The notes under the pieces are model-generated. The model saw only the letters and a program-made list of their open reading frames with translations. It searched no databases and was not told where the DNA came from. A DNA stretch of 64,000 bases, from positions 1-64,000 of the forward strand of contig JAHBNG010000019.1 in NCBI GenBank assembly GCA_019217005.1, in the 5' to 3' direction. This document shows, piece by piece, positions 8,695 through 56,306 of this stretch; position 1 is the stretch's first letter; every line of letters begins with the position of its first letter. The stretch comes from Chloroflexi bacterium TSY. GTDB lineage: Bacteria; Chloroflexota; Anaerolineae; Caldilineales; Caldilineaceae. A program made the translations under genes and the position numbers.

Positions 8695-8839
8695 TCTCTA
8701 TTACACGCAGTAGACATAATCCTGCATTTCTCAGTCAAAACAGACTCGAGCGTGCCAAATGGTCCGAGATTCTCTACTGCGTCTTTTTTCGCCATTTGAA
8801 CGCTCTACCTCTGAGAAATCCTACTGCGTGTAATCTCTA
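8695..8839. mobile_element. 139-bp mini-element with tyrosine-recombinase att ends
   Basis: Bounded on both sides by the 6-bp core TCTCTA (8695-8700 and 8834-8839). Inside these are inverted 13-bp arms TTACACGCAGTAG (8701-8713) and CTACTGCGTGTAA (8821-8833). The same core and arms bound the double-recombinase element at 41104-43220. It has no coding capacity, so it is best read as a non-autonomous derivative mobilised in trans (inference). An inner inverted pair TTTCTCAG/CTGAGAAA and a partial arm CTCTACTGCGT near 8771-8781 are also present. Confidence 0.78.
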
Positions 8840-21342: not shown

Positions 21343-21391
21343 ACCGCAGTGGAGTCGCCATGCATGGCGACTCCACTGCGGTCTGCCCTGA
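21343..21391. repeat. Perfect palindrome around GCCATGCATGGC
   Basis: The arms GCAGTGGAGTCGCCATGCA and TGCATGGCGACTCCACTGC are exactly inverted with no loop, extended by AGACC/GGTCT. It shares GGCGACTCC and CCATGCATGG with the family R repeats at 8840-8906 and 41036-41103. Confidence 0.75.
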
Positions 21392-26099: not shown

Positions 26100-26489
26100 T
26101 TATCTGCTCTGCTGTAACTCCAGCCGATACGACGCCCACGCGATCTCATTTTCCCAAATTCGTACTGTTAGGGCGTCTAAATTGTCAGCTTGAATACGTT
26201 CAGCCAGTGTTTGGCAGATAATGCGTGTAAAATGCTCGATGCTTGGATTGAGTCCAGCAAATTCCGGTTGATCATTGAGCGTCTGATCACGATAATGGGC
26301 GACAATTGCTTCTAGATTCTCTTCCACATCCACAATATCGACCATGTAACCGTGTTGATCCAGCTCTTTCCCCTCTAACTGTAATTCCAAATAGTAGTGA
26401 TGTGAGTGTTTGAAATTTTCTGGCCCCCAATCACCGCCGATCAGAAAGTGTTGGGCGACAAAATCACGCTTGGCTGCGAGAGTATACAT
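26100..26489 (-). CDS. 6-pyruvoyl-tetrahydropterin synthase / QueD-like protein
   Basis: 129 aa, ATG 26489 with AAGGAG upstream. Zinc ligands typical of the T-fold family are visible: AQHFL near the N-terminus and the HSHHYYLELQLEG pair. The C-terminal Glu lies in NPSIEHFTRII. The Cys expected a few residues before the HxH pair in QueD is absent (GPENFKHSHH), so the reaction may differ from carboxy-tetrahydropterin synthesis. It lies between a dehydrogenase and a methyltransferase remnant, all on the minus strand, suggesting a pterin-related pathway. Confidence 0.85.
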   Translation of the reverse strand: MYTLAAKRDFVAQHFLIGGDWGPENFKHSHHYYLELQLEGKELDQHGYMVDIVDVEENLEAIVAHYRDQTLNDQPEFAGLNPSIEHFTRIICQTLAERIQADNLDALTVRIWENEIAWASYRLELQQSR

Positions 26490-41103: not shown

Positions 41104-41143
41104 TAGAGATTACACGCAGTAGACATAAAAGTTAAAGTGGTTG

Positions 41144-43165
41144 CTATTGAAAAGTTGATTCAAAGGCATTCTCCAAAGTGGGACCCCAAATAGCGGGGTC
41201 AGGTTCAGGGATAGCGTAAACAGAATGTGAAGCCATAGCGGCTAAATAATGCTGCTGAATGGTTTCATCGTAGAGCTGTGCATAAAGCATGGTGGTATCG
41301 ATATGAGTGTGCCCCATGAGTTTCTGCAAGGTAGTGATGGGCATAAGGCCACTGTTGAGCAAACGGGTGGCAAAGGTATGGCGCAAGCGATGAGGAGTGA
41401 CGCCCTCTAAGTTAGCTTGGGCGGCAAAGGCATGAAGATGGTTGCGCACATAATTGGCTCGAAGAGGTAAGCCATCGCGTAGTAAAAGCGGGGAATGAGT
41501 AGCCAGGTCATCGGTGCGATGTTGCAGATGGGCATCGATGGCAAGAGCAGTGCGTTGGGTAACAGGCAACCGACGGTCACGATGGGATTTGGCATCTCGA
41601 ACGAGCAGAGTCTGTGTATCCGAATTCCAGTCAGAAACGAGCAGAGCTTGCACTTCGCCCATACGTAGCCCAGCATCAACCAGAATAAGAAACCAAGCAC
41701 GGTCAAGGAGGTCGGAAGGAGAAAGGCTCTGAGCCGTTGAGTTTAAGACGAACTGTTCAAGTTGAGCAAATTCATGCTGGCGCAACGGACGAGGTAAGGT
41801 AGTGGGTCGTTTGAGACGTTGAATGCGATATAAAGCCGGAGCGATCGACTGGCCACATTCTTCAGCAAAATGCAGAAAACACTTGAGGGTACAAATAAAA
41901 TGATTGATGGTATGGACGGAATACTCTAAGTCACATAGGTGGGTGATGTAGTCTTGGAGATCGCGCCGTCTTAGTTCGGATAAGCTGGAGAGCATGCGCT
42001 GGTCGAGCATCCATTGCCAACCGCGTTGGAGTTCGCCAAACCACTGAAGGGCTCGTTCCCGCCGATAGAGGGCTTTCCAGCGTAATTGCTGGTGGAGAAG
42101 TAATGAGATGATGGGTTGATGAAGCCAGAGCGGCAATGAGGTGAGACGTTGACGGATCTCATCAGCAGACAAACAGATGCCAACAGCTGGCTCCACTGTG
42201 CGATGTTCAGAAGGCACAGTATTCTCTGTCTCTATTGCAGATGTCGTTCCTTCAATATCCGAGCATGCGGCTTGGCGAGACAACTGCTCCATAGCAGCTT
42301 CATAGTCGGCTCGCATATCAGGATTGGCACCATCGATGTAAATCTGGGTCGTTTTCAATTGACTGTGACCCAACCAATGAGAGAGACTAGGCAGTGGCAT
42401 ACGCGACTCTGCCATTCGTCTGGCGAAGGTATGGCGCAGGCGATGACAGGAGACCTCGTTCTCGGAGAGTCCGGCTTGCTGACGGTAATAATCGAGGCGC
42501 TCCTGGATTCCGCGGACACTGATGCCTTTGTGACGACGAGTCAGAAACAGATGGCTATCGACTGCATCAGGACGCTCATCCATATAGCTCACCAACAGCG
42601 CTGTGGTTTCTGGCGTCAACCAGACTCGACGCTCTTTGTTCCCTTTGCCGCGTACGCGCAGTGACCACAGTTCGTCCGGATTTATGGCAGCTTCAATATC
42701 GCCCATCTCTAGTTTCGACACTTCGCCCACCCGCAGGCCAACGTCGAGCATCAAGGCCAACATCACTTGGTCTCTTATCTGACCTTGACTCACGCTCCCC
42801 CATAACTGGCGGACGATGCGTTCCGCTATATCTCTGGGAAGATGGCAACCTGTATCCAGTCGGTGTAGACGCCACACCACCGGGTTTGACCAGCTTTCGT
42901 CTTCTGCCTCATCCGCCAAGTAGTCGAAAAATCGGCTCAACGTTGCCACTCTGCGATTGACCGTCGCACTGCTCATCCCCGCTTCGAGTTGCGCCGTTAC
43001 AAACGTCGTTATCTCTTGGCGACCTATCTCTCTTGGCCTTTTTTCTATCACCTGGCCAAATTGATTTAGGTCACTTTCGTAATGTTTTACAGTTTCGCTT
43101 TGCGGAGAAAGCATTCTCACATGGGCACAGAATCCTGTTACTGCGGCGCTAAATTCTTGGTTCAT
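41144..43165 (-). CDS. Tandem double tyrosine recombinase (two complete integrase domains)
   Basis: 673 aa, ATG 43165 with CTAGGAGGCCAAA upstream. Two full recombinase units follow each other in one chain, each with its own core-binding domain. Unit 1 (about residues 1-295) has R145 (GLRVGE), K174 or K177, H241-xx-R244 (HRLRH), H267 and nucleophile Y276 (TTQIYI). Unit 2 (about 340-650) has R501 (GLRMGE), K526, H592-xx-R595, H619 and Y628 (TTMLYA). Both catalytic sets look complete. A variable linker (about 300-335) joins them. It probably acts as a covalent dimer on the inverted arms at the element ends (inference). A remote alternative is a domesticated gene. Confidence 0.9.
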   Translation of the reverse strand: MNQEFSAAVTGFCAHVRMLSPQSETVKHYESDLNQFGQVIEKRPREIGRQEITTFVTAQLEAGMSSATVNRRVATLSRFFDYLADEAEDESWSNPVVWRLHRLDTGCHLPRDIAERIVRQLWGSVSQGQIRDQVMLALMLDVGLRVGEVSKLEMGDIEAAINPDELWSLRVRGKGNKERRVWLTPETTALLVSYMDERPDAVDSHLFLTRRHKGISVRGIQERLDYYRQQAGLSENEVSCHRLRHTFARRMAESRMPLPSLSHWLGHSQLKTTQIYIDGANPDMRADYEAAMEQLSRQAACSDIEGTTSAIETENTVPSEHRTVEPAVGICLSADEIRQRLTSLPLWLHQPIISLLLHQQLRWKALYRRERALQWFGELQRGWQWMLDQRMLSSLSELRRRDLQDYITHLCDLEYSVHTINHFICTLKCFLHFAEECGQSIAPALYRIQRLKRPTTLPRPLRQHEFAQLEQFVLNSTAQSLSPSDLLDRAWFLILVDAGLRMGEVQALLVSDWNSDTQTLLVRDAKSHRDRRLPVTQRTALAIDAHLQHRTDDLATHSPLLLRDGLPLRANYVRNHLHAFAAQANLEGVTPHRLRHTFATRLLNSGLMPITTLQKLMGHTHIDTTMLYAQLYDETIQQHYLAAMASHSVYAIPEPDPAIWGPTLENAFESTFQ

Positions 43166-43201
43166 TTTGGCCTCCTAGGGCTATTTTACCCCTTTTTTGG
43201 C

Positions 43202-43220
43202 CTACTGCGTGTAATAGAGA
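43202..43220. promoter_or_regulatory. Right attachment end of the recombinase element
   Basis: Arm CTACTGCGTGTAA followed by core TAGAGA. It lies 37 bp upstream of the cobalamin riboswitch, so the element borders that regulatory region. Confidence 0.7.
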
Positions 43221-43257
43221 ACGCCTCTGCGAGAATTGGATCGACTGAACCTAGTGA

Positions 43258-43455
43258 AGGTGCGCTAGTACCCGGATGTACGGCGCACAATGGGGGAAGC
43301 TCGGTGAAGTTCTAACCCTTCTCGGCTGTGGTAGAGCAGCCGAGAAACGTTAAAGAACCAGTCCGGCACTGTCCCGCAACGGTGATCAAATCATTAATAC
43401 TTATTGATTCATTGTTGAACATTAATGATTTGTAAGTCCGACCACCCGCCTTCAC
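43258..43455 (+). promoter_or_regulatory. Cobalamin (B12) riboswitch
   Basis: Conserved blocks in order: AAGGTGCG, the GGGGGAAGCTCGGTGAAGTTC segment, the B12-box-like CCAGTCCGGCACTGTCCCGCAACGGTGA and AAGTCCGACCACCCGCC. A hairpin CTTCTCGGCTG...CAGCCGAGAA and a variable AT-rich hairpin AAATCATTAAT...ATTAATGATTT lie between them. It controls the corrinoid importer that follows. Confidence 0.92.
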
Positions 43456-43557
43456 ACGATCATTCATTGTTGCCCGAAAAGCAATGGATTGATGTTCGTG
43501 TGCCACCTTCGTGGACAAAGGGGCCGGACGCACAGTATGACTTAACTTTGCGCTCGA

Positions 43558-56011: not shown

Positions 56012-56028
56012 GGCGTTCTCTAATACCG
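56012..56028. other. Candidate unoccupied target site of the recombinase element
   Basis: GGCGTTCTCTAATACCG carries the core TCTCTA at 56017-56022 without any insert. The left flank CCAATTC.CG...AGGCGT matches the outer flank of the element's right end (43221-43243, reverse strand), and the right flank ACCGGTTT.GG...TAGAGCC matches the outer flank of the left end (41040-41103, reverse strand). Confidence 0.65.
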
Positions 56029-56306
56029 GTTTCGGTCGGGTAGAGCCGCATGAGGGAATGCTGCGCCATATTGCAGATTAATTAAATAACTCTGGTATAG
56101 ATAGTCGAGTCCTATACCAGGATTAATTTGTTAAGTTGCAACATGGCGCGCCATACATGGTGACTCCGCGAACACAAGACACATTTTGGATCTACTGAGA
56201 CCATCAGACTGATCGTCTTGTCGGGCACAGATGGTGAAATGCTAATGGCTGATAGCTGACAGCTAATCGCTAAAATAGCAATATATTACCAAGCGACAAG
56301 TCTTCA

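Follow-up and report, generated by a model that had tools for sequence, protein, structure and literature searches.

A probable minimal transposable element of Chloroflexota with a fused double tyrosine recombinase, found mostly at the centers of palindromes

A 64,000-nucleotide stretch of Chloroflexi bacterium TSY (here the window; positions 1 to 64,000 of contig JAHBNG010000019.1, assembly GCA_019217005.1) contains what is quite probably a minimal autonomous transposable element of Chloroflexota, with a fused double tyrosine recombinase and with insertion at palindrome centers. Comparison with relatives brings out a common plan: a length of 1.98 to 2.1 kb, 13-bp inverted ends, one gene, and 6-bp cores; the window also has a gene-less derivative with identical ends. 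Insertion at the center of a palindrome is seen in most, not all, of the readable cases.

The element, ends included, occupies positions 41110 to 43214; its inverted 13-bp ends are exact, and an equal 6-bp core lies outside each (Table 1). An earlier note, made from the letters of this DNA, had reported the exact inverted arms and the core TCTCTA at both ends of 41104 to 43220, and both the structure and the coordinates proved right. Its statement that the element carries nothing but the recombinase gene agrees with the list of open reading frames, which has one long frame (673 aa) between the ends, the rest being of 60 to 171 aa and all overlapping the long one. With its small size, terminal inverted repeats, a transposition gene only, and short direct repeats, the element shows the operational anatomy of an insertion sequence; the note's picture of a minimal IS-like unit moved by a tyrosine recombinase holds for the anatomy and the conserved ends, and the movement itself is suggested by comparison. 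A cobalamin riboswitch (RF00174, 47.9 bits) lies at 43241 to 43467, about 20 bp from the right core, and is followed by genes that by eye resemble an importer substrate-binding protein, a permease, and an ATPase.

TABLE 1 Features of the window, in window positions
Feature	Position	Strand	Sequence or basis
6-bp core copy of second element	8695..8700	+	TCTCTA
133-bp gene-less MITE-like copy (by sequence)	8701..8833	+	13-bp ends identical to the full element's
6-bp core copy of second element	8834..8839	+	TCTCTA
6-bp core copy, end nearest the gene's stop	41104..41109	+	TAGAGA (TCTCTA on the gene strand)
Terminal inverted repeat (13 bp), stop-codon side of the gene	41110..41122	+	reads TTACACGCAGTAG
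673-aa fused double tyrosine recombinase, the element's only gene	41144..43165	-	ORF, two Phage_integrase stretches, AF2 model
C module, about residues 334-648: core-binding and catalytic domains	41222..42166	-	R501 K526 H592 R595 H619 Y628
N module, about residues 1-296: SAM-like and catalytic domains	42278..43165	-	R145 K174 H241 R244 H267 Y276
Terminal inverted repeat (13 bp), start-codon side of the gene	43202..43214	-	exact reverse complement of TTACACGCAGTAG
6-bp core copy, end nearest the gene's start	43215..43220	+	TAGAGA
Unoccupied relative of the target	56012..56027	+	GGCGT-TCTCTA-ATACC within related structured repeat, arms partly complementary

With up to 2 mismatches, the 13-mer TTACACGCAGTAG occurs at 6 places in the window against 0.92 expected, a number reached in none of 100 shuffles. 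Four of the six matches are exact, two of them bounding the full element and two a second element at 8701 to 8833; the inexact matches at 26218 and 52939 have no partner end among the six. The second element, which the earlier note had not reported, has 19 bp in common with one end of the full element and 14 bp with the opposite end. Its length leaves no room for a gene of the 673-aa recombinase kind, and it folds as a single long hairpin (DNA parameters, z -5.47). Being gene-less, with ends common to the full element and the same target duplication, it is, on its sequence features, a MITE-like derivative of that element. The orientation of the core relative to the element ends is opposite in the two insertions. 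Elsewhere in the window, a palindrome of at least 40 bp lies at about 21343 to 21382; 18 bp of it recur in the target repeat next to the 8701 element, and it may belong to that system of repeats.

The 673-aa protein shows in Pfam two Phage_integrase (PF00589) stretches and an N-terminal SAM-like domain. Its AlphaFold2 model (pLDDT 79.9, pTM 0.57) has two pairs of a helical core-binding and a catalytic domain, the two recombinase folds being joined by a low-confidence linker at residues 298 to 328. Foldseek matches of the model include XerA, XerH, the Tn1549 Int, IntI4, lambda Int, and Cre, and at the sequence level each half of the protein matches solved Xer structures. Both modules carry the tyrosine recombinase signature (R, K, HxxR, H/W, Y), and the model and its Foldseek matches give the core-binding plus catalytic domain fold. 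In an alignment of 128 rows (the window protein, 120 database relatives, and 7 loci; a further alignment, A1, took 21 of the 120 relatives), 6 of the 12 catalytic positions are invariant and 5 have gaps only, in one or two rows, while H592 is replaced by C in L078 and is a gap in one row. As both catalytic sets are conserved across these sequences, both active sites of the fused protein appear to be under selection. The earlier note called the gene a tyrosine recombinase; its product is two such recombinases fused, which that note had not reported.

One could suppose that the recombinase serves some other purpose, such as chromosome dimer resolution or a phase switch, and that the element, if it moves at all, is moved by the host XerC/XerD. 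The best NCBIfam models for both modules are indeed XerC, XerA_Arch, and XerD, and the end of the element resembles Xer sites in its inner bases, which we take to be a candidate likeness. Nevertheless, each module lies under every Xer cut-off: the modules score 161.8 and 137.9 bits against 335.15 for XerC (whole protein, 292.7), 145.6 and 111.4 bits against 329.6 for XerD (whole protein, 252.6), and 155.8 and 131.8 against 220 for XerA_Arch and the integron-type model NF040815, whose cut-off the whole protein passes at 283.2 as the sum of two modules. The integron integrase model TIGR02249 gives the modules only 62.3 and 70.9 against its cut-off of 265. Together with a patchy distribution (8 of 396 and 3 of 400 genomes) and the location of the gene within its own conserved ends, the Xer scores leave such a housekeeping role very improbable.

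A tree built from 18 fused proteins together with single-module relatives groups the N modules in one clade (support 0.98) and the C modules in a second (support 0.95), which includes one further protein, P0169. The branching of the two clades is broadly parallel, as judged by eye, and is consistent, at the level of sequence, with one old fusion. Separately, three loci (L272 in G240:C476, L273 in G222:C19, and L275) encode an N-type recombinase of about 300 aa followed by a C-type one of about 500 aa in overlapping frames; this two-gene relative may be the unfused form of the fused recombinase. In L275, two imperfectly inverted 13-bp sequences stand 2,642 bp apart with unequal 6-bp flanks, and in L274, where ends were likewise looked for, none was convincing. 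There is also a related cluster, P0277, with a 400-aa protein, 30 members, and a longest contig of 2,641 bp.

The protein search scored the 7,994 candidates sharing most words with the query and reported 718 relatives; of the best 120 of these 718, 113 are 639 to 703 aa long, under a length filter by which single-module proteins of about 300 aa cannot be listed. The closest among these best 120 is itself a Chloroflexi bacterium TSY protein (590 aa, 97% identical over 89% of the query), which represents a cluster (P0001) of 40 member sequences. Family members were found in 8 of 396 genomes of one class draw, in 3 of 400 of a phylum draw, in 1 of 158 of another class draw with a relative as the query, and, when smaller sets were drawn, in 1 of 12, 1 of 3, and 3 of 25 genomes; the draws overlap, each includes its center, and those of 396, 400, and 158 genomes scored only some candidates per genome. 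Altogether, ten other Chloroflexota genomes (G001, G002, G003, G017, G025, G066, G152, G299, G320, and G632) have a member, the ten proteins being 34 to 54% identical to that of the window. There is one full gene per genome in G001, G002, G003, G066, and G299, where all candidates were scored; for the other five, only some candidates entered the count. The G632 protein is 60% identical to that of G017 despite the separate class of G632, whose class of 158 genomes differs from that of G003 (class draw of 396 from a larger group), and this suggests, as far as protein comparison goes, that the family moves horizontally.

The same kind of end recurs at every sequenced end of the ten relatives, in keeping with the earlier note's idea that related genomes would have such ends around other copies. 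Both ends are readable in seven loci (L074, L075, and L077 to L081) with elements of 1,978 to 2,079 bp bounded by inverted repeats of the same kind, and three more (L072, L073, and L076) are cut by contig ends and have a single end, again of this kind. Across the 19 ends of 11 elements, T1, T2, A3, A5, A9, and T11 are invariant, position 4 has C in 15 ends and T in the remaining 4, and the otherwise near-invariant position 10 has G in 18 ends and T at the lone end of L076. In L079, the gene terminates within the element end, whose last TAA serves as the stop codon. In view of these conserved ends in ten relatives and of the shuffles, chance alone as the source of the inverted 13-mers and the matching 6-mers is refuted for practical purposes. 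Other sequences bounded by such ends, on which the earlier note's reading depended, are represented by the 133-bp copy in the window and by a second end of a relative's element in G066 (L212, see below). Within the last 90 bases of L081, just inside the 3' end, there is a short tandem repeat, CGTGTAACCGACGGG, each unit of which contains a TGTAA resembling the element end.

Further searches delimit the family. The protein query of the genome contigs gave no match, and a degenerate motif pattern as a second scan returned three loci (L072 to L074). In viral contigs, the alignment query gave 68 loci with 19 stop-free frames of at least 550 aa, none of which matches the query; the longest viral match (L003) is two neighboring single integrases. 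A 14-mer end pattern in the same contigs found an approximate inverted partner within 4 kb at 3 of at least 120 loci, which we take as chance because none of the three has matching 6-bp flanks. Among plasmids, 3782 records match, 2 of them with a single place covering more than 80% of the query, and the best-listed matches are about 30% identical or less and fall on one or two separate recombinase genes or on unannotated stretches. None of 325 matching phage records covers 80% of the query. A search for further ends with one mismatch in G066, G152, G299, G632, and G017 gave 18 matches, at control level in G299 and G017, with no new pair in opposite orientation nearby.

Both borders can be read in eight insertions, namely, the two in the window, L075, and L077 to L081; L074 was left out, its right flank being masked. 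The two cores are identical in five of the eight and differ at one position in L080 (ACGCAC/ACGCAT) and at two in L075 (TGTGCA/GGCGCA) and L081 (CGCAGG/CGCCAG). As the core differs between genomes, it is, on this sequence comparison, not a fixed part of the element's site and goes with the target, contrary to the earlier note, which had counted it as part of the element's own site. The coupling sequences of Tn916 are likewise 6 bp long and may differ at the two ends. The three unequal pairs fit either such coupling sequences or the 6-bp footprint described for the SE elements (PMC10214605, PMC9345347). One possibility, to which we give somewhat less than an even chance, is that the element moves by copy-out and copy-in, as proposed for SE and Tn554, with one strand exchanged, the donor staying in place, and the old 6 bp traveling to one border. 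The core pairs of L075, L081, and L080 do look like a target core plus a former-site core, and in L075 only the left core matches the palindrome. Against this, the cores are identical in most insertions, the right core of L080, not the left, fits the flanking tandem repeat, so that no fixed side is seen, and mutation or Tn916-like coupling sequences explain the mismatches equally well.

The palindromic DNA outside the cores was not part of the earlier note. The flanks form a Watson-Crick run of at least 4 in six of the eight insertions, as against 1 of 56 cross-locus pairings. Counting the true pairing itself, only 4 of 40,320 permutations equal the observed runs and 1 of 40,320 equals the observed number of base pairs over the first six positions; when one flank is slid by 1 to 6 bases, no locus keeps a run of four. 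The exceptions are L080, which has no palindrome, and the window's full element, with a run of 1 bp (5 if G-T is allowed). When the rebuilt sites are folded as single-stranded DNA, six of the eight put the four middle bases of the core in a hairpin loop, and L080 and L081 give a predicted fold without such a hairpin. Four of the six predicted hairpins clearly beat shuffles (z -2.5 to -5.35), and the other two, in the window's full element and in L077, do not stand out from them (z -0.19 and -0.40).

How such a target is recognized can be read in two ways. We tentatively propose, at less than an even chance, that it is chosen by DNA shape and not by sequence: the fused pair, both halves being fully active, would accept short palindromes of any sequence that form a hairpin or cruciform whose loop has four bases, with one module for the element end and one for the stem, so that a single chain would pair donor and target. 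The left arms of the eight loci are only 30% identical over 7 positions, near chance, as against 75% over 7 for the element's own ends; moreover, L077 and L078, whose proteins are 49% identical, sit beside AGCTT and GTCGA, respectively. These figures, with the predicted looping of the core bases, speak against reading the target as plain double-stranded sequence, whereby a dimer would bind symmetric, lineage-specific arms with no hairpin or cruciform. That reading is a strong contender nonetheless, if short of an even chance, for the inner arms of Xer and lox sites are symmetric, symmetric binding needs no folded DNA, and, as noted, shuffled sequence does as well as two of the six predicted hairpins. 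Moreover, targets within a genome are alike: GCAT or GCGT beside TCTCTA in the window, and CCGTCGA-CCTGCG at both G066 insertions, while L073 and L074, from two genomes, share the core CGTCTC beside arms of C/G runs.

Some of the targets are dispersed repeats. A search in 3 of 7 relatives, together with the window, placed the target within such a repeat in three of the four cases, and the unoccupied sites seen are other copies of the repeat and not orthologous empty sites. The rebuilt L078 site has 20 matches in G066, which include the element's own two flanks and secondary matches. Three of them (L205, L206, and L207) are an unoccupied palindrome with the cores TCTGCG, CCCGCG, and CCTGCG; L216 has GTCGG...CCGAC in place of GTCGA...TCGAC; and the copies L208 to L211 are broken at the site. 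One more, L212 (L246 from 151, G066:C334), has the element's first 36 bases at the identical target position followed by unrelated sequence, with no partner end at up to 2 mismatches in the 19,080 bases fetched; this insertion could be read either as a relict or as a much larger derivative. The rebuilt L079 site has 67 matches in G017, making it an abundant hairpin repeat, in whose copies GACGG...CCGTC alternates with GTCGG...CCGAC (L240, L244, and L245); these paired variants show that maintenance of the stem need not depend on the element. The L075 target in G299 is single-copy, with a 16-bp stem, so a dispersed repeat is not required. Within the window, the third relative of the target repeat, whose site (Table 1) is unoccupied, has by eye an apparent insertion of about 72 bp at about 56070 to 56141, nested in the repeat as a hairpin with a GGTATAG...CTATACC stem and placed elsewhere than the element's site. 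We also considered integron attC sites for the target repeats; an Rfam scan of the window at gathering thresholds shows the cobalamin riboswitch only.

Bringing these observations to bear on the proposed element, we envisage that the fused double recombinase would join the element ends into a circle or a circular copy, with a junction of the form arm-6-arm, predicted to read CTACTGCGTGTAA-N6-TTACACGCAGTAG. This junction would then recombine with a host palindrome of like geometry (arm'-6-arm'), and cuts at the edges of the 6-bp core would leave borders of the form host arm-core-element arm. From what is understood of tyrosine recombinases, a synapse has four active sites, which two chains would supply. 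As the likeliest division of labor, we propose that the modules bind different partners, one the element arm and one the host arm, whereby one chain would bridge element and target.

Among known systems, the SE elements (SE-6283 and SE-6945) are described as also having inverted end motifs (C/C', imperfect, 13 to 19 bp), a 6-bp spacer at the circle junction, a 6-bp footprint, and two catalytic tyrosine recombinases (PMC10214605, PMC9345347); inverted ends with an adjoining 6-bp spacer are present in the window element too. They differ in having four genes, intA, tfp, intB, and srap (7.2 kb in SE-6945), whereas the window element has one fused gene in 2.1 kb. Their target sites, according to PMC9345347, have no detectable inverted repeat structure, in contrast to most targets of the fused-recombinase element, which are palindromic. 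Tn554 likewise has tyrosine recombinases, a 6-bp footprint, imperfect terminal inverted repeats, and a target preference (PMC10214605). Its tnpA, tnpB, and tnpC are separate genes and are accompanied by cargo, against one fused gene here. RIT elements (PMC3414803, PMC10214605) are also small, with tyrosine recombinases and inverted repeats (28 to 29 or 34 bp, depending on the paper), but have three consecutive separate recombinase genes in about 3.5 kb rather than one fused gene. SE, Tn554, and RIT, the nearest published kinds, act in a related manner by means of separate recombinase genes. The integron integrase likewise acts as a tyrosine recombinase on palindromic sites (attC) recognized by structure, according to PMC2727003. 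Unlike integrons, the window element was found with no cassettes, attI, or attC, and it falls below the integron model's cut-off. The Tn916/Tn1549-type integrases, which match in fold (6en0, 6en2, and 6emy), belong to large conjugative elements with a single integrase and targets that are not known to be palindromic repeats.

A literature search whose coverage excludes most subscription journals turned up nothing on tyrosine recombinases, fused or in tandem, that serve as transposases; nor does a tyrosine recombinase survey (PMC8138268) mention "fusion," "tandem," or "two catalytic" or a RIT paper (PMC3414803) "fusion" or "fused." Two complete recombinases in one chain are hence an arrangement without a description in the literature searched. 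Such a chain can be seen as a covalently linked equivalent of the XerC/XerD or IntA/IntB pairs, and the role of each half becomes addressable one tyrosine at a time. To our knowledge, transposase-only elements driven by tyrosine recombinases are barely described in bacteria. The closest likeness in habit is to the insertion sequences that target REP palindromes, which are small, transposase-only, and aimed at dispersed palindromes, as is the element here; those known to us use DDE, DEDD, or HUH transposases and not fused tyrosine recombinases. If the palindrome is read as shape, this would be a small one-protein system inserting DNA at hairpins, with a route to persistence by landing in abundant palindromic repeats. 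The element would then be the tyrosine recombinase counterpart of the palindrome-targeting insertion sequences and a stand-alone relative of the integron type of folded-site recombination.
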